Positions 3,001 through 27,780 of a stretch of 27,782 nt of DNA are shown one piece after another; the stretch's first letter is position 1; every line of letters begins with the position of its first letter. The notes under the pieces were generated by a model, which was given only the letters and a program-made list of their open reading frames with translations, was not told the DNA's origin and ran no database searches. Made by a program: the position numbers and the translations under genes. Source of the DNA: a virus; the IMG/VR virus record IMGVR_UViG_3300032087_001057, positions 1 to 27,782 of that record. One strand, 5' to 3'.

Positions 3001-6000
3001 CAAAGGGCTTGAACGCATCTTACGCAGCGGACGCTGTGGCTGACCACATCGCCAATAGCCCATCTGCGCGTCTGGCAAAGATACGCAACTTTGTTGGCGA
3101 CGGTATGAGCTACGACGCAAACAGCGGTACATTCCTAGAGTTTTACCACGGCACACCAAACGGCTGGGCGTTCAAGCGCAATACGAACCCAGACGTAATT
3201 CTTGGCGGGTCTGCTCGCGGACAAAAAGGTCCAGGGGTCTACTTGACACGGTCTGCTGCGGTCGCGTCTGAGGTCTATTCTCGCAAGCCCACATACGAAA
3301 ACTTGCTGGGCCAAATAAATAGACTGGTTGAAGAAGAAAAGATTGACGAGGAAACATCGGTCTACATGGTCGACGCTGCTCGCGATCTCATCAACACACG
3401 TCTGGCTCTATCGAAAGCACGTCGTAAATACTCTGAGTTCACACAGTTCAACCAAGAGAAAGAGAAGCGCGACCTTATCAAAGAGCGCATCGACTACTTC
3501 GTTGATGAAGAGCAGGAGCTTAACGATTACCTGATTGAGCGTGGTCTTCTGGTCGAGCCAATGGTTATCCCGACATTTGTGCGGGTGATGAACCCTGCGG
3601 ACTTCCGCACCAGAACGATCTATCAGCCAAACCAAGCTGGCATCCCATCACCAATGGCTAAGATATTCATCGACCATGGCGACATGATGCAAATATTCAG
3701 ACCAACGGCTCTGGATAGCTTTGCTCGTGACACGTCTTCACGTCGCTTGGACGGAGAGGAAATGTACCAACGCATCGTCCAACTCTACACCGAAAGTGGC
3801 TTCAGCAAGGAAGAAGGTCAGCGCATGCTGAATGAAGTCCTTGACGACAACGGCTACGACGGCATTCGCTCCACACACCGCAATAGCCTTGGCATTGAGG
3901 GTACAGAGCAGATGCCGAACGGAGAGTTTTACGAAGCATCAATGACCGAGTACGAAGCTCTGACTGTATTCGAGACATCTAACGTCAAGCATGTGGACGC
4001 AGACGAGTTCGATGACTTCGATGACCGTCTATTCTACCGTGCCTCTGAGGCTATGCCTCGCGGCACTGCTGGCTCTGTCACTGAAGCGATTATGAACCGC
4101 GCCATCAACAGAACGTCTGACGTCAACCCTGCTTCTCTTGGCGAGGTTATGGAGGGTGACGGCGTAAGCTCACCGATGACGTCTGCGATTATGTCTATGA
4201 TCCGTGGTCGCAAGCTCGATGTGAAAGAAGAGCAAGCAATGCGCAAGACGTCGCCATTCTGGTGGCTGCAATCACAGTCACAGCGGATGAAAGACCTTGG
4301 CGCACACTGGGTTGGTGATTGGTATAAGAACAATTTCCCATCACTGCACCAGAAGTTCGCATCTAAATACTTCCCGATCCACCACCAGCTTCGTGCGCTG
4401 CCAGACGCAGACGGCAAGGTACGAGCATGGGCGCGTGCTGCATCAGGCAGTGTCGGACAGGCGCAGCCAAAAAGTTATCAGCGCATCGTGAAGGCTTTGC
4501 GTCGCGGATACGACAAAGACGGCAACGAAACCCGCTATGTGAAGAACCTTTCAGATCAAGAACGTACCGTGTGGAACCAGATCAGAAACGCTCTGTCTGC
4601 CGAACGTGATGAGATGATCGCTAAAGGTATGTACGTCGGGGACCGTGGCCCCAACTACCTGCCACAAGTTTGGAACAAGGAGAAAATTCGTGACAACAAA
4701 CAAGAGTTTCTTGCCTCAATGGCTGACTATTTCCGAATGGAAAAAACGGCGCATGGCATTCTCGATTATACTGACGAACAGGCTGCTGATTTTGCGGATG
4801 GACTGTTTGCGACTTTGGCTGAAGACGGGGCAGATGGTGTCTTCGTTCCGATCCAAGGTGGCTCGCGCAATCCGAAGTTTGAGAACGTAGACTTCAGTCG
4901 TATCATCGAACTAGAGAAGTATCCTGCCGCAATGGATAGCCTAGAGAAGTTCCTTGAGGACGATCTCGAAGCATTGCTGGTTAAATACTTTGAAGGATCA
5001 TCGCGTCGCATCAACCATGCGGAGCAGATGGGCATCAATAGCCACGCATTCTACGACTACATTCTGGCCGCAGACGCAGGTCGTGAAGGTATCATCCGCC
5101 TGCTGACAACAGCGAAGGACTTCCGTAAGGACATCCGAGCCATCAGCGAGAGCGGATACCCAGAGTACGCCACTCTGTCAGACGTCGTGCGTATGCCATT
5201 TGAAGGGAAAGAGGGACAAGCCGCAGAGTTTGTGGACAACCTGATCCGCGTCAGTAACGACGATGGTGCAGGCGCTGCTCGCAAAATGCTAGAGACCATC
5301 GCTCCGATGGACCCAGACGGGACAATCCCGCTGGCGTACAAGCGTCGTGCAGACGCAATAATTGGCGCACTGACAGACTACAAAGGTCAGAAGGTAAACT
5401 GGAAGCCAAGTGACTTCGAGTTTATGGAAAACTCTATGCGCGTCGCTATGAAGAAGCCACAAACTGGCACTGGTTCTCGCGGCATGATGAACTTCAGCCG
5501 TGCAATGCGCAGCTTCAACAGCGTCACACTGCTTGGCTTCACGACCCTGACGTCTTTGGGTGACTTGGTACTACCAATCATCCGCTCTGGTTCATTCACA
5601 GACTGGGCGAAGGGCGTACACAAGTGGAAGTCTGATCCAGAATACGCACAGTTCATCCACGATACTGGCGTCGCAATGGAGAACATCGTCCACGAACGCA
5701 TGGTTCACATGTACGGTGCGGTTGATGGCAAGCTGACCAACGCATTCTTCAACGCAACAATGCTGACACCATGGACTGACATGAACCGTCAGATCGCAGG
5801 TGCCACTGGCTACGAAGCGATGAAGACAATGCAGCGCAAAGCTCGCAAGCACTACAAGGAAGGTTTGCCAATCGGCGAGCAGCCTGTTCAGTACAAGACA
5901 GCAGCACGCTTCCTCAACACATATGGCCTTGGTGATTACCTACCAAGTGGTGTGAACAAGGGCATCAGTCTTGGGGATCGCAAGTTGATGGGCAGTGACC

Positions 6001-6737
6001 CAGCTTTGGGACAAGCTCTCATAAAGTTTGCAGACGAAGCTATCTTCCAGCCAAATCCAAACGACATCCCGCTATGGGCGCAAACACCATGGGGTTCGAT
6101 GATCTTCCAACTGAAGTCATTCCCACTGATGATGACACGTCTTGGCAAGCACGTCGTGGACGAGGCTATGAAAGGCAACGTCAAACCTCTGGCATACTTT
6201 GCAACTCTCGGACCTGCCTTCGGTATGGGTGCGCTGGCAGCCAAAGACATCGTGCAGATGCGTGGTGGCGACGACGAGCGCAGCCCAGAGCTACGCCGCC
6301 GCAACATCCTCAAGGCTCTTGGCTACGACGAGAAAGTCCACGGCAACGAGCAAGACTTCCTTGGCTGGTATGTCGAAGGGATGATGATGATGGGTGGCCT
6401 CGGTCTTATCGGCGACGTCATGCACAGCGCAGTTACTCAAGTGGACAACGGTGCATACGGTAAAATCCGCATCGCATCCACGATAGCTGGCCCATCCTTC
6501 GGTGCATTCATGTCTGCGGTAGACGTGGGTGCTGGAGCCAAGGACGCAATGGTTGGCGGGGACAACAGCAATGCCAAAGAGCGCAGCGCAGTACGCGAAA
6601 TGGCCACAAGGATACCAGTTGTTGGCGGCATTCGAGCCGCACGAGAGGGCATTGTCGACACCCTAGCAGGGGAACCTGATGGCGGCAGACGCAAGAAGAA
6701 CCCATGGCAGACAAGCTGGAGTAGCGGTTGGAAGTAA
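3..6737 (+). CDS. Giant virion-associated polyvalent protein (5' end outside window)
   Basis: The frame is open to the left edge, so the true start lies outside; at least 2244 residues are encoded here. Two zincin-type motifs are visible: HEMAH (nt 723-737) with a following E-rich AEPLF-like helix near nt 894-930, and HEIGH (nt 2559-2573) followed by an EEWFSEG segment near nt 2730. A third region resembles ADP-ribosyltransferases: YHGT at nt 3144-3155, GPGVYLT near 3228-3248, GYDGI near 3850, and a final acidic EALTVF segment near 3954, which would give an H-Y-E triad. A Lys/Ala-rich linker sits near nt 1720-1840. The C-terminal ~450 residues hold hydrophobic helices and Met/Gly-rich stretches. 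Its place directly before the lysis genes fits a protein ejected with the genome, as in polyvalent proteins of phages. The exact targets are unknown. Confidence 0.85.
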   Translation, partial: EVKYADRSRFTNNQRKLRDLWNATSDDARAEMEGIPPDAALNEAGYETSLGRPMTQVEASFIELTADTTLTEKETAAILYAGKKTDHIKKIDEVTVADLLYYEMALNSTRWQRNLNEHRAIGEAIKSLNEVMDRIAPNGIKLPNAKRADAMRKLDEIFAGVGTDELQHAREFLTRMGGDRAVAPELGTSTPTPTMTGVYEFGVPREDGMTAVTDLGVSQRVGVKQTPTKVYPNPRLMTFYHEMAHWAYYNILTHKDRADFWKSMDKYYTDDGKLDIDLLVASVPKVDEKGVPLNNALEAPAELFANQFEVFMANKIRGYATGSESYWRRVTKYIQAVFDRYFGGVMIDPDLEPMFAKILPDEESGAFAMGKDAVAKTDAGKTYNRRYAQIKMDRQDLKDAIFDDSPEGIVNASRTIVETLLTLAPRVHIAMKRGTTGTLMPLIPMRSMIRQRIDDISEILSGKPFDFDAYDKGEMPRWMIDEGLTAVDDPTEAADMLRDFYFNGYNGKFQPSNGIPAGPKGQPINKQYTSLEKLFDMMETRLEAAYKKAESGDLPPSATPKLDTDVEPSERPNPIKRKAAKKKQRIEKAADAAAAAVTKTPAAKRTRRNPKSGRVVDPAFAESLKTKEPNELRSLFIEHKGTERGDQVAFELMHRVKSQPASAYKEARITKEIKAMKSDELEATFLNGLETGDQNTVNMAITEMMRRQINKRRRKEGLQIIQPRILKRDILQKEIDDNVGLAQSDGIPPAARASVREILGYITHRDPEIQYTARTMAYRMLNLMGKTSRKALGEANVMTSADLARLANTDPNTVGNAAFADFRAPEFQKLRSDLRRMAIGLNKGKANPFDMMHEIGHVMVRSGVLADDEIAAIREAYTLANDTTKKRIQTAYAGKYADRTENIDDLLAEEWFSEGLAYYMAERVAKGDILEAALDGNIGNLRMRNSFSRAMDKMIEYIAYVLNGMVGRNDIKQQYRRLFLFGDMFQTNTTPPLATVIRRTKGLNASYAADAVADHIANSPSARLAKIRNFVGDGMSYDANSGTFLEFYHGTPNGWAFKRNTNPDVILGGSARGQKGPGVYLTRSAAVASEVYSRKPTYENLLGQINRLVEEEKIDEETSVYMVDAARDLINTRLALSKARRKYSEFTQFNQEKEKRDLIKERIDYFVDEEQELNDYLIERGLLVEPMVIPTFVRVMNPADFRTRTIYQPNQAGIPSPMAKIFIDHGDMMQIFRPTALDSFARDTSSRRLDGEEMYQRIVQLYTESGFSKEEGQRMLNEVLDDNGYDGIRSTHRNSLGIEGTEQMPNGEFYEASMTEYEALTVFETSNVKHVDADEFDDFDDRLFYRASEAMPRGTAGSVTEAIMNRAINRTSDVNPASLGEVMEGDGVSSPMTSAIMSMIRGRKLDVKEEQAMRKTSPFWWLQSQSQRMKDLGAHWVGDWYKNNFPSLHQKFASKYFPIHHQLRALPDADGKVRAWARAASGSVGQAQPKSYQRIVKALRRGYDKDGNETRYVKNLSDQERTVWNQIRNALSAERDEMIAKGMYVGDRGPNYLPQVWNKEKIRDNKQEFLASMADYFRMEKTAHGILDYTDEQAADFADGLFATLAEDGADGVFVPIQGGSRNPKFENVDFSRIIELEKYPAAMDSLEKFLEDDLEALLVKYFEGSSRRINHAEQMGINSHAFYDYILAADAGREGIIRLLTTAKDFRKDIRAISESGYPEYATLSDVVRMPFEGKEGQAAEFVDNLIRVSNDDGAGAARKMLETIAPMDPDGTIPLAYKRRADAIIGALTDYKGQKVNWKPSDFEFMENSMRVAMKKPQTGTGSRGMMNFSRAMRSFNSVTLLGFTTLTSLGDLVLPIIRSGSFTDWAKGVHKWKSDPEYAQFIHDTGVAMENIVHERMVHMYGAVDGKLTNAFFNATMLTPWTDMNRQIAGATGYEAMKTMQRKARKHYKEGLPIGEQPVQYKTAARFLNTYGLGDYLPSGVNKGISLGDRKLMGSDPALGQALIKFADEAIFQPNPNDIPLWAQTPWGSMIFQLKSFPLMMTRLGKHVVDEAMKGNVKPLAYFATLGPAFGMGALAAKDIVQMRGGDDERSPELRRRNILKALGYDEKVHGNEQDFLGWYVEGMMMMGGLGLIGDVMHSAVTQVDNGAYGKIRIASTIAGPSFGAFMSAVDVGAGAKDAMVGGDNSNAKERSAVREMATRIPVVGGIRAAREGIVDTLAGEPDGGRRKKNPWQTSWSSGWK

Positions 6738-8562: not shown

Positions 8563-9384
8563 CTATTCCTTCGGCAGCGGCTCGTATACTTCGTAGTCGC
8601 CGCACGGTGCGTTGGCTTCTTTATCGTGTTTGTCACAGTGCCAAGCGCCACTTGGGTGTGCGGAAGAAAAGCGACATGTTCCGCATCGTACTGGAACGTC
8701 CATACCTTCCCAACATACGCCACGTTTGAAGCATCCCTTGCATCTCCAATCAGTCCCGTCGTCGCTGATCTTTCTTGACTTGCCAAGGATTGATCTTTCG
8801 ATCCGCTCTTTGATGTGAGCAAACTCAAATTCGTCATAATTTACTAGCTCCGCATGATAGTCGCAGTTGTTCTTGTTGATGGCTATGAACAAAGTCTGCG
8901 TCATATCGGACATGCCCATCATCATCTGCACCTGTCCGAAATATTGTGGGTGAGATGACTTCACCCCATTCTTTTTAAACTTGTTGAAACTTGCATCGTT
9001 CATCGACTTGATCTCCAAGACGCGGACGATGCCATCATCCAACTCAACGTGGCCGTCCATATGGCAGACGATGTGACCACCCCACGCTTCGTATGTATGC
9101 TGTCTGTTTGTAAGGCCGTCGACTTCCCAGACGCGGATGTCTGCCTTCCTCTTTAGGTCTTTGACGACTTCGTCTTCGAGGATGTGGCCCAACTGGAATA
9201 TGCGCTTGAGGCGAGGGTCTGGCTCAACATTTGGAAATCCGCGCAAGTTGAAAGCGATTGCGGCATCACAGGCGTGTCCGATAATTGACGCGCCAATGTA
9301 TTCTCTGGCTTTTTCTTCTCGTTTGTCATTGTCGTAACCTTCGTCGATTGCGAAGACCACTTCTTCTGCTGTTTTAACCTGCAC
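8563..9384 (-). CDS. PD-(D/E)XK nuclease with Cas4/AddB-like cysteines
   Basis: The 273-residue protein has the RecB-nuclease pattern: a GHILEDEVV helix (66-74), HMDGHVE with D110, LEIK with E124 and K126, and a later YFGQVQMMM helix with Q151. One Cys in the N-terminal helix (C39) plus C215, C218 and C224 near the end match the spacing logic of Fe-S nucleases such as Cas4 and AddB. A further C-terminal zinc-ribbon-like part has C234, C237, C250 and C261. A 5'-3' exonuclease role making single-stranded tails for the neighbouring SSB-like and Sak4-like proteins is likely. The start is GTG with AGGG upstream; no better ATG is available. Confidence 0.82.
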   Translation of the reverse strand: MQVKTAEEVVFAIDEGYDNDKREEKAREYIGASIIGHACDAAIAFNLRGFPNVEPDPRLKRIFQLGHILEDEVVKDLKRKADIRVWEVDGLTNRQHTYEAWGGHIVCHMDGHVELDDGIVRVLEIKSMNDASFNKFKKNGVKSSHPQYFGQVQMMMGMSDMTQTLFIAINKNNCDYHAELVNYDEFEFAHIKERIERSILGKSRKISDDGTDWRCKGCFKRGVCWEGMDVPVRCGTCRFSSAHPSGAWHCDKHDKEANAPCGDYEVYEPLPKE

Positions 9385-9413
9385 TGCTTCGCGCCCTATG
9401 TTTATAATTTAAG

Positions 9414-9436
9414 AGAGGGGCAAGCTGCCCCCCTCT
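9414..9436 (-). terminator. GC-rich hairpin after the SSB-like gene
   Basis: AGAGGGG pairs perfectly with CCCCTCT around a short loop, and on the minus strand it is followed by CTTAAATTATAAAC, an AT-rich tail rather than a pure U-run. It lies between the SSB-like gene and the nuclease, so it may attenuate transcription into the nuclease. Confidence 0.45.
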
Positions 9437-9445
9437 GTATGGCAT

Positions 9446-9928
9446 TTAAAACGGGATTTCGTCGTCCAGTTTCTTAGCAGTTCCACCTGACTTGCCTTCT
9501 TTGTCGCCACCTCCTGATGGCTTGAACGATTTAATCTCAGTCTGCTGACGTTCGTTCCCGTCTGTTCCCTTCCATGGCTTACCCATGCCGACATACACAT
9601 CGCACGACAGACCAACCAAAGTTGTCACGTCTGATGGATTGTCTGGCGTTGGGTGATCCCCTGCCAACAGAAAAGATTTCAACTGACGCAAACCAATCTC
9701 GACCGTCTGGTCATTGGTGTGATGCACGTTGAAATTAAAACGAATGTCACCAGACCCATCAACATCTTTGAAGTCTGCAACCACACGCTTGTGCTGCTCC
9801 TTGTCACCAAAACTTTCTACTTTTGCTGACGTACATTTTACTGTGTAGTTCCCAACAGCCAGACGCTGTGAGCCTTCACTCTGTTCAACCTTCGATAGGT
9901 CTAGTTCTCCAAAACCACTCCAACTCAT
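9446..9928 (-). CDS. DUF669-like single-stranded DNA-binding protein
   Basis: The 160-residue protein opens with MSWSGFGELDLS, has a beta-rich middle (NYTVKCTSAKVESFG, RVVADFKDV, RFNFNVHH), a Gly/Lys linker, and ends in DDEIPF. The acidic-aromatic tail is the hallmark of bacterial SSB proteins, where it recruits partner proteins. DUF669 proteins occur beside phage recombinases and are thought to be SSB-like. Its neighbours are a Sak4-like ATPase (ATGA overlap, 9925-9928) and a RecB-type nuclease, which supports a role in homologous recombination and replication. Confidence 0.82.
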   Translation of the reverse strand: MSWSGFGELDLSKVEQSEGSQRLAVGNYTVKCTSAKVESFGDKEQHKRVVADFKDVDGSGDIRFNFNVHHTNDQTVEIGLRQLKSFLLAGDHPTPDNPSDVTTLVGLSCDVYVGMGKPWKGTDGNERQQTEIKSFKPSGGGDKEGKSGGTAKKLDDEIPF

Positions 9929-10731
9929 TTTTCATCTCCTGTCTTTTTGTCAGATTGAGCCGATTGATATTTCTCCCACTCGTCGTCTGGCATAGACATT
10001 CGAGATAGAAGTTCTGTTACGTCGTCCACCTTTTCGTATGGCTTCAGACGTTGACGTGGGTCACGGACTTTGCCGTGCCAACCACTGGCCTCATCAGTCA
10101 CGACGTATCGTGAGACCTTGGGCATCCCTTGATCGTTCTTTTCGGTTGTGCGAACGCCGCACAAGACGTGGTCGAACAGTGCAGGAATTTGTTTTGACAC
10201 CTTCTGGCCTTTTACGAATGGCCAATACTGGGTCACATCATTTGCGTCTTGTTCCTCTGCTGCAAGGCAGGTGACATAGACGTGCATGTCGAGGTCGCGT
10301 ATCCACTTGAGGGTTCCGATCATCATCCGTGAGTAGTCGGCCCAAAGTTGGAAGCCATTGCTGTTGTGCTTGTGTTCGACTTCCAAGTGTTCAATCAAAC
10401 GCTCGGCAAGTTCAGTCAAGCTATCAATGGCAATCCATTTGTACCCTGCTTTCTGGAACTCCTCTGTTGCAATCATTTTACAGATGCCACGATATGAGTA
10501 CACACCGTCCTCTGGATCGTGATTGCCATCCCAAGACGAGAAAGGAACGTAGTCGATGTCGACATCTTCGACTGACTTCAGTCCGCTTTCGCCTGAGATA
10601 ATTAGACCTTTGCCAAATCTCTTCTGATAGAAGCGGCATTGGTATGTCTTGCCATATCCGTGGTGGGCATAGAGCAAGACTTTAGTAGGGCCATCCTTTG
10701 TGATGGATGACGTCTTGGGAAATTTAAACAT
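9925..10731 (-). CDS. Sak4-like RecA-fold ATPase (AAA_24 type recombinase)
   Basis: The 268-residue protein has a Walker A at residues 22-29 (AHHGYGKT) and a Walker B at YKWIAIDSLTEL with D103, in the compact RecA-like arrangement of AAA_24 proteins. Phage proteins of this type (Sak4) stimulate single-strand annealing and work with a cognate SSB. The C-terminal part is basic then highly charged (QSDKKTGDEK). It is translationally coupled to the SSB-like gene and overlaps the upstream gene by eight bases, so all three are one operon. Confidence 0.82.
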   Translation of the reverse strand: MFKFPKTSSITKDGPTKVLLYAHHGYGKTYQCRFYQKRFGKGLIISGESGLKSVEDVDIDYVPFSSWDGNHDPEDGVYSYRGICKMIATEEFQKAGYKWIAIDSLTELAERLIEHLEVEHKHNSNGFQLWADYSRMMIGTLKWIRDLDMHVYVTCLAAEEQDANDVTQYWPFVKGQKVSKQIPALFDHVLCGVRTTEKNDQGMPKVSRYVVTDEASGWHGKVRDPRQRLKPYEKVDDVTELLSRMSMPDDEWEKYQSAQSDKKTGDEK

Positions 10732-11158
10732 GTGGTATTACCCTCACTTTTGGTTTGTCTAGCTTTCGAGTGAGAGCAAATTTCAGCTTCTCCTGCTCGC
10801 TTGTTGGAAGTTTGAGGAACTTCCGCTTGTCTACGGTCAACGACCGCTTGACGTGATCGGGCAATTCACCTTGCGAGAATGCTTTCTCCAAGGCTTCCTT
10901 GTCCCATGTCCACCGTTCAGAACGGTTGACGATTACCTCATAGCTGTTTGTTGATATGGCTTTCTCACCCGCCTCTTCTGGGAAGACGTGCGCGATTTCT
11001 GTTTCCAACTGTGCTATGAGAATAGTCAGAGCCTCTAGCTGATTTGACACCTCAAGGTGTTGCTTTGCTAAATCCTCTAATGTTTTACTTCGCTCGGAAG
11101 GTTTGGGCGTCTTCTTCCCTATACTATCAAAGACATCCCACTCATCGCTTTCAATCAT
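10724..11158 (-). CDS. Hypothetical phage protein, first gene of the recombination operon
   Basis: The ATG at 11158 has a near-perfect Shine-Dalgarno (AGGAGGA) seven bases upstream; the longer open frame runs into the promoter region. The 144-residue product has an N-terminal acidic part, a helical coiled segment (LEDLAKQHLEVSNQLEALTILIAQLETEIAHVF), a beta-like SYEVIVNRSERWTW stretch, then LPDHVKRSLTVDKRKFLKL and a basic C-terminus. I do not recognise the family with certainty. Its place ahead of the recombinase genes suggests a DNA-metabolism accessory role. Confidence 0.78.
   Translation of the reverse strand: MIESDEWDVFDSIGKKTPKPSERSKTLEDLAKQHLEVSNQLEALTILIAQLETEIAHVFPEEAGEKAISTNSYEVIVNRSERWTWDKEALEKAFSQGELPDHVKRSLTVDKRKFLKLPTSEQEKLKFALTRKLDKPKVRVIPHV
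11047..11060. promoter_or_regulatory. Operator-like palindrome ACACCTCAAGGTGT (copy inside gene)
   Basis: Six-base arms ACACCT/AGGTGT around CA, identical to the copy at 11207-11220. It lies about 100 bases inside the first minus-strand gene, where a bound repressor could block elongation or loop to the main site. Confidence 0.6.
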
Positions 11159-11201
11159 TGTATCCTCCTGTGACTTACCAGCTACAATATCGTTTGGTGT
11201 C

Positions 11202-11232
11202 TTGTCACACCTCAAGGTGTAGTATATATAAT
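11202..11232 (+). promoter_or_regulatory. Early plus-strand promoter with operator in the spacer
   Basis: TTGTCA (11202-11207), a 17-base spacer, then TATATA (11225-11230, overlapping TATAAT at 11227-11232) fit a sigma-70 promoter firing toward the Cro-like gene. The palindrome ACACCTCAAGGTGT (11207-11220) fills the spacer, and a half site AAGGTGTC follows at 11235-11242. Binding there would block RNA polymerase. The region 11159-11262 also must hold the divergent minus-strand promoter; TTGACA is present on that strand at 11240-11245 but I see no clear -10. Confidence 0.65.
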
Positions 11233-11262
11233 ACAAGGTGTCAACTAAATGGAGTAGAAAAA

Positions 11263-11490
11263 TTGACTTCGCGATTGAACATATCGGCATTGATCTCTGA
11301 TCTTGGTGGAGCAGCCAAGGTTGCTGAGATTGCTGGCGTAGTGCGCACAGCCCCGTATGGATGGGTTAAACGCAACTACGTTTCGAGTTCCGTCTTGGAG
11401 AAAATAAAATCTGCCAACCCTGACATTAACTTAGACTTTTACTTTCACGAGGTGGACGATGACCAAGACAAAAATGGAGGCCGCTCTTGA
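11263..11490 (+). CDS. Cro-like helix-turn-helix repressor
   Basis: The 75-residue product is read from a TTG start with GGAG eight bases upstream; no ATG or GTG fits. It carries the Cro pattern LISDLGGAAKVAEIAGV, then RTAPYGWVKRNYVSSSVLEKI and a PDINLDFYF end, matching small YdaS/Cro-type HTH proteins. The weak start codon suggests low expression. Its gene lies just downstream of a promoter with a palindromic operator, so autoregulation and control of the divergent recombination operon are likely. It overlaps the primase gene by 32 bases. Confidence 0.8.
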   Translation: MTSRLNISALISDLGGAAKVAEIAGVVRTAPYGWVKRNYVSSSVLEKIKSANPDINLDFYFHEVDDDQDKNGGRS

Positions 11491-13369
11491 GTATTTGGAT
11501 CGCGGCTGGGCCGTTATCCCAATCAAGGGTGACAAAAGACCTGCAATAAAGTGGGCTGATTTTCAGACAAGGCATCCAACTGAGGAAGAGGTCGTAGACT
11601 GGTGGACCAAGTGGCCAGACTATGACATCGCGGTGATTACAGGTGAGATAAGCGGCATCGTTGTTGTCGATTGTGACAACGAGGAAGCCGTGGACGCTGC
11701 CCAAGAAGCGGGTATGCAAAGTCCTATAAGGGTGAAGACCAAGCGCGGTCTTCACCTTTACTTTGAACATCCCAAGGATGGCATACGTCGTGGCCCACGG
11801 GCTGGCGTAAACAGCAGAGGTTCAGACTGGCCAAAGATAAATGGCTTAGACTTCAGAGGTGACGGCAGCTATGCGCTGCTTCCCCCATCGAACAATTACG
11901 AATGGACAGTCCCACCTTACATGGACTGGGACGAGATGCCTATGTGGCGTGACTGGCAGCCCAAGCTGAAAGAAGAACGTCTGACAGCAGACTTCACTTT
12001 CTCCAAGCTCGACCTGTCTTCGATAGACCCCATACATCCAGACGAGTTTATCAGTGAGTGGGATCGCACAGCAAAGTATGTGCTTGAGCATTTCCCAACC
12101 ACCAAGAAGATACCGTCTGGCATGAGCAACGGACGCAACGAACGAGTGATGCGCTACATCAGCGAGAGCATACTCGAAGGGTTCTATGGACCAGAGTTAC
12201 GAGTGCGTGGCTTTGCGTTTATGAATGAGTTCTTTGAAGACAACCTTGATGAGCGTGAGTTCGAGGCCACAGTGCAGTCGATGGAGCAAGCTGAGAAGCG
12301 CAACCATCCAGAACGCTTCGACGACAAGGGCAACTATATATACAGCCGCGACCTTATGCCCAAGAAGGAAGAGAAGAAGGCAAAGAAGCTGATACAAATG
12401 CGGGATGCCGAGCAACTTTTAGAAGAGGCAGACGCGAAAACCTATTTGATAGAACCGTGGCTTCCTGCTAATACAATCGTGCAGGTCTTCGGTTACTCAG
12501 GACATGGCAAATCACTTTTCGTTCAGCATGCAGTCAGCGCACTCTGCGCTGGTCGGAAGTATTTTGGCCCCTTTGAAATCGGCAGACCTGCACGAGTGCT
12601 ATACTTAGACTTCGAGATGGGCATGGCAACTATCGCCAGACGTCTGATGGAGTTGCGTCAGATGCACGGCGATACCCAAGACAGGCTGAACATCTGGACA
12701 CCATTCATCGAGGGCAGAGAGATAGACTTGCAGACGCGAGAAGGTCTTCTCGATCTACAGGAATGGATAAAGTTTGCTGGCCCAGACGTCGTCGTCATCG
12801 ACACCATCCGCTCGGCATACCCAGGGATGGCAGAGAACTCGGCAGACGAGTGGGCAAAAGTAAACAAGCTGGCGGTAACATTGCGCAACTCTGGCCTTGC
12901 CGTCATCCTTATTCACCACAGCAACAAGCCGTCTGAGAGTGGCGTCGGCAGGGAAGCTGGCTCAACAAACCAGTTGACCGTCTTGGAGACGCAGATCAGG
13001 GTAGCTCAAGTATTCAAAGACGAAGAGACAGCAAAACAAAACGCTGGCTTATACGATGCGAACTACGACATGCCAGTCTGGCCTTTGCTGGAGAGCAAGC
13101 TGCCGCCTGAGTATCGGCTCTACATGGTGATGGAGATTAGGTACGGTAAGGTGCGTGAATGGACAGACTTACACGACCGTGTGCAGTGGATTGGTTACGC
13201 TGCGCACAACACAACAGACGAGAAGATTGTGGTAAGCAGCAAGTCAACAAAGCAGCGTGCGAAAGACATGGCCTTGGAGGGTCATTCGCCCATGGCTATT
13301 TCTGATAAGTTGCATCGACCTCTACGGTTGGTCCGTGACTGGCTCGAACTTCACGATACTTCTTCCTAG
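11459..13369 (+). CDS. Bifunctional primase-polymerase / RepA-like helicase
   Basis: The 636-residue protein has two parts. Residues 1-150 are an archaeo-eukaryotic type Prim-Pol domain: AIKWADFQTR, the catalytic VVVDCDNEEA (D71, D73), KTKRGLHLYF with H99, and a GLDFRGDGSYALLPPS segment. After a helical linker, residues ~340-520 form a RecA-like hexameric helicase domain with Walker A GYSGHGKS, VLYLDFEMG, the Walker B DVVVIDTIRS and a VILIHHSNK sensor. The C-terminal end contains a possible HTH (PMAISDKLHRPLRLVRDWLEL). It would prime and unwind DNA at phage replication. GAGG six bases before ATG supports the start. Its last 74 bases overlap a small minus-strand gene. Confidence 0.9.
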   Translation: MTKTKMEAALEYLDRGWAVIPIKGDKRPAIKWADFQTRHPTEEEVVDWWTKWPDYDIAVITGEISGIVVVDCDNEEAVDAAQEAGMQSPIRVKTKRGLHLYFEHPKDGIRRGPRAGVNSRGSDWPKINGLDFRGDGSYALLPPSNNYEWTVPPYMDWDEMPMWRDWQPKLKEERLTADFTFSKLDLSSIDPIHPDEFISEWDRTAKYVLEHFPTTKKIPSGMSNGRNERVMRYISESILEGFYGPELRVRGFAFMNEFFEDNLDEREFEATVQSMEQAEKRNHPERFDDKGNYIYSRDLMPKKEEKKAKKLIQMRDAEQLLEEADAKTYLIEPWLPANTIVQVFGYSGHGKSLFVQHAVSALCAGRKYFGPFEIGRPARVLYLDFEMGMATIARRLMELRQMHGDTQDRLNIWTPFIEGREIDLQTREGLLDLQEWIKFAGPDVVVIDTIRSAYPGMAENSADEWAKVNKLAVTLRNSGLAVILIHHSNKPSESGVGREAGSTNQLTVLETQIRVAQVFKDEETAKQNAGLYDANYDMPVWPLLESKLPPEYRLYMVMEIRYGKVREWTDLHDRVQWIGYAAHNTTDEKIVVSSKSTKQRAKDMALEGHSPMAISDKLHRPLRLVRDWLELHDTSS

Positions 13370-18838: not shown

Positions 18839-18946
<108 letters not shown>

Positions 18947-18976: not shown

Positions 18977-19975
18977 TTATGTGCCACGCACACCTAGAAG
19001 ACCTATCGTATCCTCAAGGTGTGATGGCGCAAGATGACTGTAACGCATCACCATTGACAGTGAACTGTGGCCAAGCAAGTCAGCCACCGCTCTTAGCGAA
19101 GCGCCCCTCTGCACCAGTAACGATGCAAAGGTATGGCGCATGTCGTGCGGCCTAAAGTCTTCAATGGCTGCACGTCTCGTGGCTCTGTAGAAATAGTCAT
19201 AGAAACCATCTCTATGCCACTGACCCCCTGCGGGGTTCGGGAAGACCAGTCCTGTACCTCTTCTTCCCATGGCTTTGGTGACGTCGTCGACCAACGGCAC
19301 GGCTCTGAACCGCGTCTTGCCTGACGTCCCCTTGCGCGTCCCAAAAGTGGCCTTGCCATCTATGATGTCAGACCACTCCACACGGAACGCCTCGCCAAGT
19401 CTCGCCCCTGTAAAAAACAGGAACGTGACCAATCCTTCTATTTCTGGCTCGCAACATTCGATGAGCGTATCTCTCTCATCCTCGTCAAGCCAACGTGTGC
19501 GGCTGTCGTCGACCTTCGGCTTCTTCAACCGCAAGTCTGGCGCATCCAGTCCCATGTCCTTGGCATGGTTCAGCATGGCCATAATGCTGTTGATCTCCCG
19601 CTTCACGGTCGACGCTTTGTTACCACGACTATTCACCCACAACATAACATCAGCAACAGTCAGCGCCTCCAGACGTGTCTTGCCATGGGCCGCATCAAAG
19701 CGCCCCATGATATTTACATCTGTCTCCCCGACCTTGCTTGGCCTATCCAAGAACAGCCTAATCGCCTGTCCCACAGACACACTGGAAGTCGCGCCCTTTT
19801 CAAGACGTCCATCCAACGCATCCTTGAGTATCCGCCCCATGGCTTCTTGCGCATGTGGCTTCATACTCCGACCAAACCCAGTGCTTTTACGGACGCGTAG
19901 TCGACCACCAGTTGGCGTGACCACAGTCCCACTTACTTGCCAAACATCATTACGCAGCGTCAGTCGTAGTGTCAT
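18977..19975 (-). CDS. Tyrosine recombinase (phage integrase)
   Basis: The 332-residue protein starts at ATG 19975 with GGAG seven bases upstream; the longer frame above it lies in the LuxR-type gene. It has an N-terminal arm/core-binding part (SVGQAIRLFL, LTVADVMLWVNS) and a catalytic domain with R192 in TGARLGEA, H277 and R280 in RPHDMRHTFASLL, H303 in LLGHSS and Y312 in MRYSHL. These are the R-H-R-H-Y residues of the family. It would integrate and excise the phage, probably at the tRNA-Thr region 30 bases beyond its end. It overlaps the LuxR-type gene by 26 bases, so the two are cotranscribed. Confidence 0.95.
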   Translation of the reverse strand: MTLRLTLRNDVWQVSGTVVTPTGGRLRVRKSTGFGRSMKPHAQEAMGRILKDALDGRLEKGATSSVSVGQAIRLFLDRPSKVGETDVNIMGRFDAAHGKTRLEALTVADVMLWVNSRGNKASTVKREINSIMAMLNHAKDMGLDAPDLRLKKPKVDDSRTRWLDEDERDTLIECCEPEIEGLVTFLFFTGARLGEAFRVEWSDIIDGKATFGTRKGTSGKTRFRAVPLVDDVTKAMGRRGTGLVFPNPAGGQWHRDGFYDYFYRATRRAAIEDFRPHDMRHTFASLLVQRGASLRAVADLLGHSSLSMVMRYSHLAPSHLEDTIGLLGVRGT

Positions 19976-20408
19976 TCCTCTTCTCCGCATACAAACGAGC
20001 GAACGGATCAGGCTCAACAAAGTTTGCGTCCCAGTCTTTGGGCAGCCCACCTGTCATCATCATGTATCCGTTGTCATCAATCTCGTCGAACTCTCTATGC
20101 AGACGATGGATAAGTTGTGCGCGTGAATTAACATTCAGTTTTCTGAACATCCCCCTCACATGCACCTTGGCCGTGTTGATGCTCACAACCATCCTGTCTG
20201 CAATTTCTTGGTTATCAGCCCCTCGCATCAGCATTTGCAATGCGACGTGCTGCTTCGTAGTGAACTTATGCAGCACACTTTCCATTAGGGTCGCCTTTGT
20301 TGCCGAAGCCAAGGCTTCGGCGTCTGTAGATGCGTCGTAGGCTTTCGCCATAAGCGCACCAAGTATTTGGTCGAGCTTCCACTCGATCCGATCCAGTTGT
20401 GTTGTCAT
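19950..20408 (-). CDS. LuxR/NarL-type (GerE) regulator without sensor domain
   Basis: The 152-residue protein has a GerE HTH at residues 48-105 (FTTKQHVALQMLMRGADNQ, then EIADRMVVSINTAKVHVRGM and LNVNSRAQLI). The first 45 residues form a short helical, probably coiled-coil, dimerisation segment (QLDRIEWKLDQILGALM), and no autoinducer or receiver domain is present. The C-terminal 45 residues are polar and acidic with GYMMMTGG. It overlaps the integrase gene, so it may be made with it and control lysogeny. The start is ATG with AGGGA upstream. Confidence 0.88.
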   Translation of the reverse strand: MTTQLDRIEWKLDQILGALMAKAYDASTDAEALASATKATLMESVLHKFTTKQHVALQMLMRGADNQEIADRMVVSINTAKVHVRGMFRKLNVNSRAQLIHRLHREFDEIDDNGYMMMTGGLPKDWDANFVEPDPFARLYAEKRNDTTTDAA

Positions 20409-22737: not shown

Positions 22738-23023
22738 ACTCTCTCTCCTCTGGTAGGGTTTGTGTGCGAAAGAACCCCTGATGTTTGGGGAACTCCCACA
22801 TGAACAGCCGCGCATAATACGGCGTGTAATTGTTGGACATCTTGAACTCCTCACCAGACGTCTCGACGTCTGTGTGCCATCTGATGCGCTCGAAGATTGC
22901 CTTGCTGCTGTATTGCTCATGCCCTCTGGCAATCACCTCAAACGTGAAGCGCTTGAACAATTCGTAAATGTGCGGGTTATCTTTGTGGTACATCCACCAC
23001 TTGTGCTTGATGCTCTGGCTCAT
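22721..23023 (-). CDS. Conserved phage protein with RFTFEVIARGHEQYSSKAIFERIRW core
   Basis: The ATG overlaps the previous stop (ATGA). The 100-residue product has a well-marked core: FKRFTFEVIARGHEQYSS, then KAIFERIRWHTDVET, NNYTPYYARLFMW and GFFRT. I know this aromatic-rich pattern (YSSxxIxxxIRWxT, NNxYxxxxxRxFM, GFFxTR) from many phages and some bacteria, but no function is established. It looks like a compact alpha-helical domain. Confidence 0.82.
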   Translation of the reverse strand: MSQSIKHKWWMYHKDNPHIYELFKRFTFEVIARGHEQYSSKAIFERIRWHTDVETSGEEFKMSNNYTPYYARLFMWEFPKHQGFFRTQTLPEEREYDQAS

Positions 23024-23526
23024 GCTGCCACCTCGTAGTCTGCCAACCACTCTGGCTTGTCACGCTTGGTCCACTTGTGCAGGTGACGCTTGTCGCATGC
23101 GTAGTACCAACGATACGAAGCAACGTGACACGACGTGTCACCGTGATGCTCGTCATACGGAACCTTGTACTCGTCTGGGATGCAGCGTGGCGGATTGCGC
23201 CAACCATTCTCAGGTATCAGACGCGACGCAAGCCCAAGACTTGGCAGCAACTGCATCGAACCGTGCGCTTTTCCGTACCGTTTGATCCACTCATCGGCCA
23301 ACGCAACCGCATGGTCCCAACACCACTCGTAATGCGACCGACTGGCACCCACCCACAAGGTCATGGGGTGACTGACATGCGTGTCGCCATACCCGCCGAC
23401 GAACCCGTAATCACGGGCCGACGTGGACATCATCTGGCAACACTCAATAAGTATCTTCCCGACGTGCTTGTCCGCATAGTAACGCGCAGCCTGATCGGGA
23501 TCGTCGTGCAAAAAGAATATGTTCAT
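23020..23526 (-). CDS. Conserved phage protein with MNIFFLxxDPxxAAxYxxDKHVxK N-terminus
   Basis: The 168-residue product starts MNIFFLHDDPDQAARYYADK then HVGKILIECCQMMSTSA, a signature of a widespread phage family. It continues with SHPMTLWVGASRSHYEWCWDHAVALADEWIKRYGK, and a basic C-terminus (ACDKRHLHKWTKRDKPEW). Charged, His-rich parts suggest metal or nucleic-acid binding, but the function of this family is not established as far as I know. It is coupled by ATGA on both sides. Confidence 0.84.
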   Translation of the reverse strand: MNIFFLHDDPDQAARYYADKHVGKILIECCQMMSTSARDYGFVGGYGDTHVSHPMTLWVGASRSHYEWCWDHAVALADEWIKRYGKAHGSMQLLPSLGLASRLIPENGWRNPPRCIPDEYKVPYDEHHGDTSCHVASYRWYYACDKRHLHKWTKRDKPEWLADYEVAA

Positions 23527-23696
23527 ATGTCTAACTCCTCACATATGGCTTTGATGGTTGATAAATCTGCGTGGCGCACATTGCGTTCACGCACTCGCTT
23601 GGACACTGCCATCCAGAACTTCATGTCCTTGCGTGGATGCAGACGCATCCACTCGGCTCTCACTGTCCACTTCCTGATGCGCGGCCTATACCGCAT
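23523..23696 (-). CDS. Small basic protein between the conserved phage gene and the CobT-like gene
   Basis: The 57-residue ORF starts at ATG 23696, overlapping the end of the CobT-like gene by 11 bases, and ends in an ATGA overlap with the next gene. It reads MRYRPRIRKWTVRAEWMRL, then MKFWMAVSKRVRERN and a final helical AICEELDI. It is strongly basic. Coupling on both sides and the absence of any gap make it very likely real. The function is unknown. Confidence 0.72.
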   Translation of the reverse strand: MRYRPRIRKWTVRAEWMRLHPRKDMKFWMAVSKRVRERNVRHADLSTIKAICEELDI

Positions 23697-25569
23697 GCTT
23701 GGTGTGATCCAACGTCACGCGCTCTCCAAGCAGCAGCTTGGACAACTGGTTCATCACCTCGCCTTCAAGGTCTTTGATGTCGTTCACGACGACGTGCTTG
23801 GAATAGAAACGCTCGACCGCATCGCTCTGAATACCGATGCCCACAAGCTCGACGTCTGACGCCTCGATGCCACGGCACACCTCCAACAGATGCTGCTCGT
23901 GGCCATAGCCGTCAGCCGCAGGCCATCCGTCTGACAGAACCATCATCACCTTGCGCTTCTCAGGACGCGCACTCAGTCTGTCGTATGCGTGAAGCACTGC
24001 CTCGCCATCCGCATTGTTACCGTCTGCCATCGCAACGATGCTGCCGATAGCCCCCTTGGCCTCGAACAGACGCTCCTCAAAGTGCTTGAACACAGACATG
24101 CGCAGCGGCTCTGTCCTGTTGTACGAACCTGACTTGGCACGGTAGGCTTTCCTGTACTCGGCACTCCACATCGCACCAAACTGGTTGTCGAAGCCCAGTA
24201 TCTCGTACTTGATGCCTGTACGATCCACCGCCTCGGCAATCGCAATGGCACACTGGCGTGCCGTCTGTATGCGCTTGCTGCGTGTCATCGAACCACTCAG
24301 GTCGATGAGCAACGTCACTGCCGTGTCCATCTCCTGCCTGTCGGTGCGCACCTTGAACACATTCGGACGACCCGCAACCGCAGCGGTCAGACGCTTGGTG
24401 TCAAGACGACCATGCTCCTTGGCCACATCCCAGTCACGCGTCTGCTTGGCAATCAGCGCACGCTCCAACTTACGTCTGAGCATGTTGATGGTGCCGCTCA
24501 TCTCCGCAAGCACCCTGTCATACGTCTCGGCCTTGCCCTGCGCGAGAATGTGAAACCCCTTGTTGCTATGCTCGCCACCTGGGTATTTGTTTGGCTCGTC
24601 TGAGCGGTGGAACCACATGTCATAGGCAGTCGAGAACGGTGTGTACCGCTCACCACTCTTGCCCTTGACCCTGCGTGCGAGCTTCTCAAGTGCTTTCTCT
24701 AGTCCAAAGTCTTCGTAAACGTCATCCACACGAGGCTCATCTGCGGTGTCTGTGTGTTCCCTGTCGCCATCATCAGGTTTGTCGCCTTCTGAAACATCGC
24801 TTCCCTCTGGCTGATCGGTCCCGTCCACGTCGTCTCCATGTCCACCCCGTTCGGCGTCGCCCACCTCGCCGTCAGGCGTCCCTGTCTCTCCGTCTTGTTG
24901 CTCATCTCCGCTGTCTCCTTTCTCTGGTTCTTCGCGTTCATCACGCTCACGACGCAGCGCAGCTTCCATCTCCTCGGCCAGCGCGAAGACGTCTGAACTG
25001 CTGTCACACTCATCAAGACGCTCGACGTAACCGCGAAGCATGGCCTCAAGATCGCCGTCGAGCAGGTCGATACATTTCTGCTGTGTCTCGCCGCCGTAGC
25101 CCTCACGACCAATCCATGTGGCTGCGACTGGCCCAATGAACACTGGGTCTTGCAGACGTGGGTCGCTGCGCTTGATCTCGCGTAGGAACTCCTTGTTGAC
25201 CGCATCACTCGTGGCTCTGATGTTCTTCTCGGCTCCGCCGTACTCAGAGATGACGCGCTTCTCCAACCACACGTCTTCGAGTGCGTTGGCACATGAGTGC
25301 AGCAGCTTGTTGCCCTTCAGCTTGTCTGCGTTCTTGCGCAACACGTCGAAGTCTGTGTGACGCACATGCCCTGCCTCATGGTCGACGTACCCACGCATGA
25401 TGGCTGCGTCTTCCTCGCTCACGTCACCGCGCAGGTTGAGTGCAGGAAGTATGATTTTGCTGCCGTCTGTGGCTGCGCCGTCACCTTGGAAGACGACTTC
25501 GACTGATTTCTTGCGACCGAAAACGCTTGATGTTTTGGTCAGTTCGTTGGCGAATATGTTACCCTTCAT
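23686..25569 (-). CDS. cobT: CobT-like VWA-domain protein
   Basis: AAGGAG seven bases before ATG 25569 sets the start; the 627-residue protein has three parts. An N-terminal zincin-like region has H64-E-A-G-H68 and ALED with E98, as in the CobT N-terminal domain. An acidic, disordered linker of ~85 residues follows (about residues 205-290). The C-terminal part has a VWA/MIDAS fold with DLSGS (~residue 421), the middle FDNQFG and VLSDGW. CobT pairs with CobS and CobN as the aerobic cobaltochelatase in host bacteria. Here only CobS is present, immediately upstream in the operon. The metal-binding N-terminus may be structural or a remnant. Whether it makes cobalamin or remodels another target is unknown. 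Confidence 0.87.
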   Translation of the reverse strand: MKGNIFANELTKTSSVFGRKKSVEVVFQGDGAATDGSKIILPALNLRGDVSEEDAAIMRGYVDHEAGHVRHTDFDVLRKNADKLKGNKLLHSCANALEDVWLEKRVISEYGGAEKNIRATSDAVNKEFLREIKRSDPRLQDPVFIGPVAATWIGREGYGGETQQKCIDLLDGDLEAMLRGYVERLDECDSSSDVFALAEEMEAALRRERDEREEPEKGDSGDEQQDGETGTPDGEVGDAERGGHGDDVDGTDQPEGSDVSEGDKPDDGDREHTDTADEPRVDDVYEDFGLEKALEKLARRVKGKSGERYTPFSTAYDMWFHRSDEPNKYPGGEHSNKGFHILAQGKAETYDRVLAEMSGTINMLRRKLERALIAKQTRDWDVAKEHGRLDTKRLTAAVAGRPNVFKVRTDRQEMDTAVTLLIDLSGSMTRSKRIQTARQCAIAIAEAVDRTGIKYEILGFDNQFGAMWSAEYRKAYRAKSGSYNRTEPLRMSVFKHFEERLFEAKGAIGSIVAMADGNNADGEAVLHAYDRLSARPEKRKVMMVLSDGWPAADGYGHEQHLLEVCRGIEASDVELVGIGIQSDAVERFYSKHVVVNDIKDLEGEVMNQLSKLLLGERVTLDHTKHAV

Positions 25570-25579
25570 GGTCGGCTCC

Positions 25580-27385
25580 TTATGAGAATACGCGAGTTGC
25601 AAGGCCGTTAAGCACGGCACGATCCTGCACACTGGCTCTGTCGAGAATGGTTGCCTCAAGCGCTTGCTTGGTGGCGTCTTTCATGCCCATGGTCGAGAAC
25701 GTCTCGACTGCTCTGGCAAAGGCGAGGAATGTGCGTGGGCTGATCGGTTGCAGCACCTTGGCAGACGTGAACGCTTCGAGGTGTTCGCCAACGTACTGGT
25801 TGACACGACTGAGCAAGTCGCCGTTGAGCGTGGGCGCATTGCTCTCAATCAGCTTGGCTCTGTCGCTTGCGGCCATGTACTCAACCTTGACCCACACGGT
25901 GAAGCGGTCGAGCAATGCCATCGACTGCGGTCTGGCACCCTGATACATGCCGAACTCATCACCTTGGCCCACGGTGTTGCCTGTGGCGAACATGCGGAAC
26001 ATCTTGTGCGGATTGACGATGCGACCGCCATCCTCGGTCAGCATGAGGCCGTTGCCCTCAAACGCACGCTGCATAACGTAGGCGACGTCTGGTCTGACGA
26101 AGTCGATCTCGTCGAAGATGCCGATGTATGGCCCCGACATCATCTGCGGCAAGATACCGTCAACGAACGTGGATGTGGTGGCACCGTCCTCAGACGACAA
26201 GACGTCACGACCGATGAGGTCCATGCGTGTGATCTCGCTGTCGAAGTTGACGCGCATGACAGGCCAGTTCAGCATGGCAGCAACTTGCTCCACGAGCGTC
26301 GTCTTGCCTGTGCCTGTGTGACCGTGCAAGTAGCAGCGTTGGTTGGTGATGATGGCGTACAGCACACGGAACAACTCGAACGGACGGAAGATGTAGTTGG
26401 GGTCACGCACTGGCACATGCGGATGCGGTGCATCCCACTGCCACACTGGCACGTCGAAGTTCAGCGTCTTCTTGGCACCCGCAGACGTGAGGCCGAACAC
26501 CTCATACGCCTTGGCAATCGTGACCTTGCCTGTGGGCAGCTTGCCGTCTGGCGTGAACTCGATCTCGGTCGGCACACTCGGCATGACCGCAGCCTTGGCC
26601 TTGGCTGATGCTTCTGCGAGGTCGCGTGTCAGCGTGTCGATCTGGTCGAGCATGGTGTTGATGCTCGGCAGCGATGCGGCAGACAGCATGGCGTCGATCA
26701 TCTTGGCCTCGCCTGCGTCTGGTCGCTTGCTGCTTGGCGTTGGTGTCGGTTCGTCGCCGTACATCTCGTCGCTCTCCTGCACCTCATGGATGCGGTCGGC
26801 AATCGCTCTGGCCTCTTGCGTATGTGCGGTCGACAGATACGGTGGCTCGGTCGGGTTCTCGTCACGCACGCGAATGGCGTCGAGTGCGGCTTCGAGCTTG
26901 CCGAGCTTCACGTCTGTGACCTCACGCATGGCGTCCTTGATGATCGTCAGGGGCATCTTCGTGTGGAATGTGACGTGGTCGATGATTGCGATAAGTTCGG
27001 ATAGGTTCATTTCGGGCGCGTCCTCCTCTTCTGCTGCTGCGCGTATGATTTCGCCGTATTTGTCGTCGTCGAAGTGCAAGGGACGACCGATGTCGTAGCC
27101 CGACTTGGTGGTCGGTTTCGGGTAGCACTTGCTCTGGTCTGCGAGAGCATCGACGACGTCGTAGACGTTGATCTGGCCTGCGACGATGCCTGTGAGCGTC
27201 TGGATGCTCATTGCGTCACGCAATGCCGCCCACGATGGACGGCACGACCAGTCAGCTTTGTGAATGGCTTCGCGTATGCTGTGCGAGTGCAACTTGAGGT
27301 CGTCGCTCGCCATATTGCGCAAGAGTTTGCGCTGCTCGGCGAACGGCAAGTCCATCGCTTGTCGTATGATTTTGAGGTTTCTCAT
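25580..27385 (-). CDS. cobS: CobS-like AAA+ ATPase with long N-terminal extension
   Basis: ATG 27385 overlaps the previous stop (TGATG) and has GGAGGAG five bases upstream. The core (last ~290 residues) matches CobS: HPHVPVRDPNY, Walker A GHTGTGKTT (~353-361), MRVNFDSEITRMDLIGRD, GILPQMM, Walker B IFDEIDFVRPDV (~residue 425) and FATGNTVGQGD sensor-1 region, then the QGARPQSMALLDRF box. About 300 residues precede the core and are not CobS: helical, Ala/Glu/Asp-rich, of unknown role. CobS with CobT forms the ATPase part of cobaltochelatase. Only 10 bases separate it from the CobT-like gene. An alternative is a MoxR/VWA-type chaperone pair. Confidence 0.88.
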   Translation of the reverse strand: MRNLKIIRQAMDLPFAEQRKLLRNMASDDLKLHSHSIREAIHKADWSCRPSWAALRDAMSIQTLTGIVAGQINVYDVVDALADQSKCYPKPTTKSGYDIGRPLHFDDDKYGEIIRAAAEEEDAPEMNLSELIAIIDHVTFHTKMPLTIIKDAMREVTDVKLGKLEAALDAIRVRDENPTEPPYLSTAHTQEARAIADRIHEVQESDEMYGDEPTPTPSSKRPDAGEAKMIDAMLSAASLPSINTMLDQIDTLTRDLAEASAKAKAAVMPSVPTEIEFTPDGKLPTGKVTIAKAYEVFGLTSAGAKKTLNFDVPVWQWDAPHPHVPVRDPNYIFRPFELFRVLYAIITNQRCYLHGHTGTGKTTLVEQVAAMLNWPVMRVNFDSEITRMDLIGRDVLSSEDGATTSTFVDGILPQMMSGPYIGIFDEIDFVRPDVAYVMQRAFEGNGLMLTEDGGRIVNPHKMFRMFATGNTVGQGDEFGMYQGARPQSMALLDRFTVWVKVEYMAASDRAKLIESNAPTLNGDLLSRVNQYVGEHLEAFTSAKVLQPISPRTFLAFARAVETFSTMGMKDATKQALEATILDRASVQDRAVLNGLATRVFS

Positions 27386-27780
27386 CACGTCTCCTCCGTG
27401 ATTGGTTTCGGTTTGAAATTCGAGGCATTCTGCCCCACCTGATAACCCCTTTTAGGGGGAAGCGCGTGCCGCGCGAGGACACCTTCCGACACCTCGTATG
27501 TATAACGTGCTATACAGGGTGTCAAGGGTGTCTCTTTTGTGAGGGTGACGGTGTCGCCGACGCTTGCGATGCGCTTGACGTCTTTGATCGACACTCTGCG
27601 GTCGCCTCTGGCTGTGACGTAGAAGCGAACCTTGGTGGCAACGCCGTTGACGTAAGCGTTGACCTCGACCTTCTCGCGAAGGCTTGCGTAGTCGATGCCG
27701 TAGGCGTCGAGCGCCCAAGACCTCACCGACGCGTTGGCGTCGATGATGTGCTTGTCGAGCATCGTGCGAGTGAGTTTGAT
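27385..27780 (-). CDS. Hypothetical protein, 5' end outside window
   Basis: The frame is open to the right edge, and the first in-window ATG (27762) has no Shine-Dalgarno, so the true start is probably outside. The N-terminal part visible is folded-looking: RSWALDAYGIDYASLREKVEVNAYVNG, VRFYVTARGDRRVSIKDVKRI. The last ~45 codons cross a promoter-like region and use rarer codons (ATA, AGG, CCT), so the sequence there may be shaped by regulation. It is coupled by TGATG to the CobS-like gene. The function is unknown. Confidence 0.65.
   Translation of the reverse strand: MKLTRTMLDKHIIDANASVRSWALDAYGIDYASLREKVEVNAYVNGVATKVRFYVTARGDRRVSIKDVKRIASVGDTVTLTKETPLTPCIARYTYEVSEGVLARHALPPKRGYQVGQNASNFKPKPITEET
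27446..27458 (-). promoter_or_regulatory. Hairpin CCCCT-TTT-AGGGG upstream of the CobS-like gene
   Basis: A five-base perfect inverted repeat with a three-base loop, inside the end of the partial gene and about 60 bases before the CobS-like start. It has no U-run. It could stabilise the leader of a transcript starting at the promoter-like sequence just upstream. Confidence 0.3.
27499..27525 (-). promoter_or_regulatory. Promoter-like sequence and palindrome driving the cobS-cobT operon
   Basis: On the minus strand TTGACA (27525-27520) and TATACA (27504-27499) are 15 bases apart. They overlap a GTATA-N6-TATAC palindrome (27500-27515), the same layout as at 20582-20597, and GGTGTC/GACACC half sites (27488-27493 and 27518-27523). 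It lies inside the ORF of the upstream partial gene. Confidence 0.5.

Follow-up and report, generated by a model that had tools for sequence, protein, structure and literature searches.

A CobS-CobT-like gene pair in a CRP-810-type phage is probably a MoxR/VWA remodelling machine with a gluzincin-type site rather than a cobaltochelatase

Introduction

Phage cobS and cobT genes are regularly counted as auxiliary metabolic B12 genes, and cobS is a core marker of marine cyanophages. Among the described systems closest to such pairs is aerobic cobaltochelatase, whose CobS and CobT (PDB 9uka series) have the AAA+ protein, the PF06213 plus VWA architecture, the pairing and the gene order CobS-CobT in common with the pair considered here. 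We analysed this pair in a linear IMG/VR virus fragment of 27,782 bases (record IMGVR_UViG_3300032087_001057), which in its whole length is called the window below. We consider it probable that the two proteins form an ATP-driven MoxR/VWA remodelling machine with a gluzincin-type site and a client in phage DNA replication or recombination, and not a cobaltochelatase.

The window pair belongs with the phage and viral 'cobST' clusters (PMC8651126) and the CRP-810-type roseophages (PMC11288001), from which it differs in nothing essential. The genes cobS and cobT have already been reported in 'almost all' CRP-810-type phages (PMC11288001), and both publications read the viral pair as cobalamin metabolism. 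A pair described from jumbo phages (PMC7824862) also consists of a MoxR AAA+ gene adjoining a vWA protein with an N-terminal metallopeptidase domain, but for that pair virion assembly was proposed and CobS and CobT were not mentioned; we liken it to the window pair by description, not by sequence. The pair itself and both competing ideas, the hijack of CobN and the MoxR-vWA-peptidase, are already published, and our addition is evidence that favours one of them.

In the Salmonella nomenclature, CobS is cobalamin synthase and CobT is dimethylbenzimidazole phosphoribosyltransferase, which are unrelated enzymes. The CRP-810 paper gives the phage genes those Salmonella-type functions (PMC11288001), and the CobT of phage Cyrano is annotated in the same way. 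The PHROGs labels for the viral pair (phrog_249, phrog_1576, phrog_459, phrog_17276 and phrog_5298) are inconsistent as well, and range over porphyrin biosynthesis, unknown function, peptidase, CobT subunit and cobalamin biosynthesis.

The pair set against cobaltochelatase CobS and CobT

The CobS-like gene starts with an ATG at position 27385 (a GTG at 27388 is open too) and stops at 25580 on the minus strand, giving 601-602 aa; it is joined to the upstream gene by an ATGA overlap of start and stop codons, with the Shine-Dalgarno sequence GGAGGAG in front. The CobT-like gene begins 11 bases past that stop with an ATG at 25569, after AAGGAG, and ends at 23686 (627 aa). A 657-aa version of the CobT-like protein from a TTG was rejected, the upstream extension being without support. 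The original prediction of a CobS-CobT-like pair in a phage was borne out: the CobS-like protein matched AAA_5 and phrog_249, the CobT-like protein matched PF06213 (5.9e-18) and CobT_C (4.9e-39), and the best solved sequence relatives in the PDB were cobaltochelatase CobS for the AAA+ core (1e-49) and cobaltochelatase CobT (8e-38). Compared with phage cobS and cobT sets, as had been suggested, the pair turned out to be a typical example of a gene pair already known from viruses. Purifying selection acts on both genes, with ratios of nonsynonymous to synonymous substitution rates of ~0.26-0.37 against two relatives.

The Walker A (GHTGTGKT) and Walker B (DEID) motifs of the CobS-like protein are conserved and of the MoxR/dynein-related type, and a VWA gene is adjacent. 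Homology to canonical CobS begins at residue 311 of the CobS-like protein and at residue 26 of the canonical one, which leaves ~285 additional N-terminal residues and agrees with the about 300 originally estimated. In the predicted model (mean predicted local distance difference test score 89), the first ~210 residues formed a confident, mostly helical domain; the fold search of the model returned AAA+ matches throughout and no relative for this extra domain, and the core matched CbbQ and NorQ. The linker of the CobT-like protein (~215-280) is acidic and disordered. Its VWA domain has an intact MIDAS motif, DLSGSM, at residues 423-428, of which D423, S425 and S427 did not vary in an alignment of 53 rows. 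In fold, the predicted VWA domain matched NorD (Z 20) and the midasin MIDAS domain (Z 21).

The pair remained far under the cut-offs of the NCBI equivalog models. The CobS-like protein reached 174.2 bits (TIGR01650, cut-off 558.55) and the CobT-like protein 184.4 bits (TIGR01651, cut-off 759.05), whereas the Paracoccus CobS and CobT controls passed with 591.4 and 816.1 bits, respectively. Canonical CobT formed a single separate clade (Shimodaira-Hasegawa-like approximate likelihood ratio test 100, stem of 2.3 changes per column), and canonical CobS likewise formed a clade of its own, in a tree with only three canonical CobS sequences. The window pair also differs from aerobic cobaltochelatase in being without CobN, in the longer CobS-like N-terminus and in an HExxH motif plus glutamate in the CobT-like N-terminal domain. 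The cobalamin label of the pair is weakly supported, and cobalt insertion into hydrogenobyrinate diamide is an unlikely job for it.

A gluzincin-type site in the CobT-like protein

The HExxH motif lies within DHEAGHVRHTD (residues 63-73), and the gluzincin-type motif set comprises HEAGH (64-68), NALED (95-99, an NxxED motif) and E103. HExxH falls in a predicted helix (52-71) and the glutamate in the next one (88-109). H64, E65, H68, E98 and E103 were invariant in the 53-row alignment, in which two rows had a one-residue insertion inside the motif. HExxH and NxxED were both conserved in 44/44 aligned viral relatives, the most divergent of which has 24% identity to the window protein; these rows exclude the window and were gathered with probes not containing HExxH, and one bacterial set collected by a pattern that includes HExxH was not used as evidence of motif conservation. 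HExxH with the third glutamate was present in nearly all phage and plasmid relatives, and HExxH was intact in eight of ten named phages. Judged by sequence, H64, E65 and H68 with the glutamates E98 and E103 are the predicted ligand set of a gluzincin. A chance occurrence of HExxH was ruled out by its conservation over dozens of divergent rows. When the N-terminal domain was compared with PDB profiles and Pfam for a zincin match, CobT itself was the only convincing match. The site is degenerate in the CobT-like proteins of phages hairong (L018:3062-5140) and BUCTxx99 (L019:3857-5842), where the HExxH glutamate is retained and both histidines are gone.

According to the original prediction, the CobT-like protein 'keeps' an HExxH motif. 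The motif is real, but the verb was wrong, since HExxH was absent from all 29 distinct canonical alphaproteobacterial CobTs, which were found without reference to the motif. At its position these have RG-x-AD...LRLRHHD or similar, and the solved CobT in the PDB likewise lacks HExxH. The signature is a simple discriminator between the mobile type and cobaltochelatase CobT.

CobN and the hosts of the pair

As originally noted, CobN is absent from the window, where PF02514 had no match. A CobN elsewhere in the genome had been named as a possible refutation and did not appear: there was none in complete relatives, and PF02514 had no match in 16 phage or virus records carrying the pair, namely the complete CRP-810 and 15 others, of which some IMG/VR records may be fragments. 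Of 14 bacterial genomes in which the mobile HExxH type occurs, nine were without CobN, including the isolates Lentisphaera marina and Chitinibacter tainanensis; several of the others are metagenome-assembled and may be incomplete. Some carriers, such as Paracoccus, do have CobN. Plasmids of 219 of the 5426 complete Escherichia coli genomes carried a homologous pair, which was found on no chromosome, and a DNA-level search with a CobN gene in E. coli gave no match, in agreement with the established inability of this species to make a corrin ring. CobN-less hosts with the pair include E. coli, Desulfovibrio and Lentisphaera.

The CHUG lineage, which is infected by CRP-810, is without cobG and cbiX (PMC11288001) and can no longer make B12 de novo (PMC11288001; PMC9426536). 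The host lineage of the nearest phage is a B12 auxotroph, and no convincing B12-dependent enzyme was encoded among the CRP-810 proteins.

Neighbouring genes in other elements

In unrelated elements, homologous pairs have genes of replication or recombination close by. T5-like and SSU5-like phages carry DNA ligase, primase, DnaB or Pol III alpha in the vicinity of the pair, and in ICP2 DnaB is nearby. The pair of cyanophage P-SSM2 is flanked by gp46 on one side and by the clamp genes gp45-gp44 on the other, and that of a cobavirus precedes DNA polymerase and primase-helicase. Homologues in Desulfovibrio, Geobacter, Lentisphaera and some alphaproteobacteria occur with DUF3150, and the bacterial DUF3150 loci that were read closely often had an ERF annealing protein and an exonuclease-like gene in front. 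The IncC plasmid pNDM10505 has the order AAA, hypothetical, ssb, bet, exonuclease, DUF3150, VWA (L125:1774-9767), its VWA protein being of the HExxH type. The ERF or Bet-exonuclease cassettes of Desulfovibrio, Lentisphaera and IncC plasmids share with the window a homologous AAA+ and HExxH-VWA pair, here beside recombination genes, but differ in their DUF3150 partner. A clear alternative partner, which had also been named as a refutation, was not found in the window phage: DUF3150 was recurrent only in the bacterial and plasmid branch and was not seen beside the window pair. The Desulfovibrio assembly MES5 contained five HExxH-VWA loci (L104, L105, L110, L112 and L114) and five DUF3150 genes, with the order AAA-DUF3150-VWA in the two loci read closely (L104 and L105); these loci are possibly related prophages or mobile islands.

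The favoured reading and its alternatives

NorQ/NorD, CbbQ and midasin provide the nearest folds of the AAA+ core and the VWA domain, and the ring-plus-VWA principle is likely common to them and the window pair, although they act on other clients. To our knowledge, none of them has an HExxH domain. We infer for the window pair that the CobS-like AAA+ proteins would assemble into a ring that holds the CobT-like protein by its VWA domain, in the way NorQ grips NorD and midasin its MIDAS domain. ATP hydrolysis would shift the VWA domain relative to the N-terminal domain, the MIDAS site would hold the client protein, and the putative N-terminal metal site (HExxH plus glutamate) would cut or grip it, with peptidase activity in the former case. 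A complex of proteins that replicate or recombine phage DNA is the most likely client. That an AAA+ ring turns ATP hydrolysis into VWA movement has been proposed from NorQD structures (PMC13036017).

The original prediction offered two readings, a supply of subunits to host CobN and a MoxR/VWA machine on another target. The second is favoured and the first disfavoured because the pair occurs in CobN-less hosts, has a gluzincin-type site of its own, fails the equivalog cut-offs and in many relatives has replication and recombination genes as neighbours. In the published form of the first reading, put forward for archaeal and bacterial tailed viruses (PMC8651126), phage CobS and CobT are auxiliary metabolic genes whose products stand in for the host subunits or add to them, and so make host CobN yield more cobalamin. 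The clear homology to CobS and CobT, the pair staying together in many viruses, the presence of CobN in carriers such as Paracoccus and the cobalamin reading also given for CRP-810 (PMC11288001) are in line with this, but the CobN-less hosts, a CHUG lineage unable to make the corrin substrate de novo, a site missing from real CobT, scores far under the cut-offs and a CRP-810 gene content without a convincing B12-dependent enzyme make it very unlikely.

Virion assembly or structural-protein processing by a MoxR-vWA-metallopeptidase pair has been suggested for group 2.2 jumbo phages, with tail assembly in an archaeal virus as the precedent (PMC7824862), and involves the three modules of the window pair (MoxR AAA+, vWA and N-terminal metallopeptidase). 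We regard such a role of the window pair as unlikely, given that the CRP-810 pair stands in an early-type block, at a distance from the genes for head and tail and oriented against them, that the pair accompanies replication and recombination genes in other elements, and that related pairs are on IncC plasmids, which build no virion. The early-type block, with its integrase and small unknown genes, and the wide spread on phages and plasmids would also suit a role in host takeover or anti-defence, in which, at an early stage of infection, the AAA+/VWA-protease would dismantle a host protein such as a nuclease, a repressor or a defence complex. Against this, PADLOC families, the only counter-defence search made, gave only weak generic AAA+ matches, and we hold this role to be quite unlikely.

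Several observations weigh against the remodelling machine itself. The sequence of the pair is closer to CobS and CobT than to any other solved AAA+/VWA pair. A zincin fold of the CobT-like N-terminal domain was not confirmed, the fold searches having listed only VWA proteins, which does not exclude such a fold. Metal ligands are missing in Pseudomonas phage hairong and Stenotrophomonas phage BUCTxx99, ICP2 lost the third ligand E98, and two viral relatives, L057 (4462-6342) and L062 (6549-8516), have HEAGGH, with one residue inserted in HExxH and the other site residues conserved; because of these losses and the altered spacing, catalysis would not be universal. The idea of a target on DNA rests on neighbourhood, and early phage genes are often near replication genes anyway, while the window phage's own Cas4-exonuclease/Sak4 operon is 12 kb from the pair.

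More tentatively, and with the odds somewhat against so broad a statement, the mobile 'CobST' proteins of tailed phages, phage-plasmids and IncC plasmids may be widespread AAA+-driven VWA metalloproteases that remodel or cleave proteins on replicating or recombining DNA, with cobaltochelatase CobT as a derived offshoot from which the metal site has disappeared. Should the pair be a remodelling protease, many ecological statements about B12 metabolism in viruses would no longer hold, and the client of a very common machine of phages would have yet to be found. Laboratory strains offer a way to test this, as versions of the pair exist on phage-plasmids of E. coli, which is without CobN, and of Salmonella.

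Genome context of the window

The window phage is of CRP-810 type. Its gene order is collinear with that of Roseobacter phage CRP-810 (57,692 bp, complete), where gp06 and gp07 are annotated as CobS and CobT and gp09 is a glycosylase; the glycosylase-like gene of the window holds the equivalent position. Identity to the CRP-810 proteins was 48% for the CobT-like and 50% for the CobS-like protein, and a 58.5-kb IMG/VR contig encodes a CobT that is 96% identical to the CobT-like protein. The gene upstream of the CobS-like gene is probably in one transcription unit with it.

Table 1. Positions of the pair and of other features in the window
Feature	Position	Strand	Remarks
Gene of unknown function	27385..27762	-	directly upstream; ATGA overlap with CobS-like start
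CobS-like MoxR-family AAA+ ATPase	25580..27385	-	helical N-terminal domain ~1-210, AAA+ core ~311-600
CobT-like protein	23686..25569	-	N-terminal PF06213, acidic linker, C-terminal VWA
HExxH codons, H64-H68 of CobT-like	25366..25380	-	computed from ATG at 25569; alignments
Pyrimidine dimer DNA glycosylase-like, downstream	23020..23526	-	phrog_624 1.1e-43; Pfam Pyr_excise slightly below cut-off
Integrase gene	18977-20050
tRNA-Thr(GGT)	18872-18946		complete
Primase/polymerase-helicase type replication protein	11459..13369	+
Separate recombination operon: Cas4-type exonuclease, SSB-like, Sak4-like annealing protein, unknown gene	8563..11290	-
Giant open frame	3-6737		2,244 aa; cut by window edge

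The tRNA-Thr(GGT) adjoins the 3' end of the integrase gene. CRP-810 likewise has a tRNA-Thr(GGT) beside its integrase, and the tRNA was also present in three IMG/VR relatives. The tRNA-Thr beside the integrase suggests integration into a host tRNA-Thr gene. Of 296 Rhodobacteraceae genomes, 274 had sequences similar to this tRNA-Thr (best 93%), a result in keeping with that group but not pointing to a particular host. The giant open frame had weak matches to virion structural proteins, and CRP-810 gp34/gp35 are its likely counterparts.

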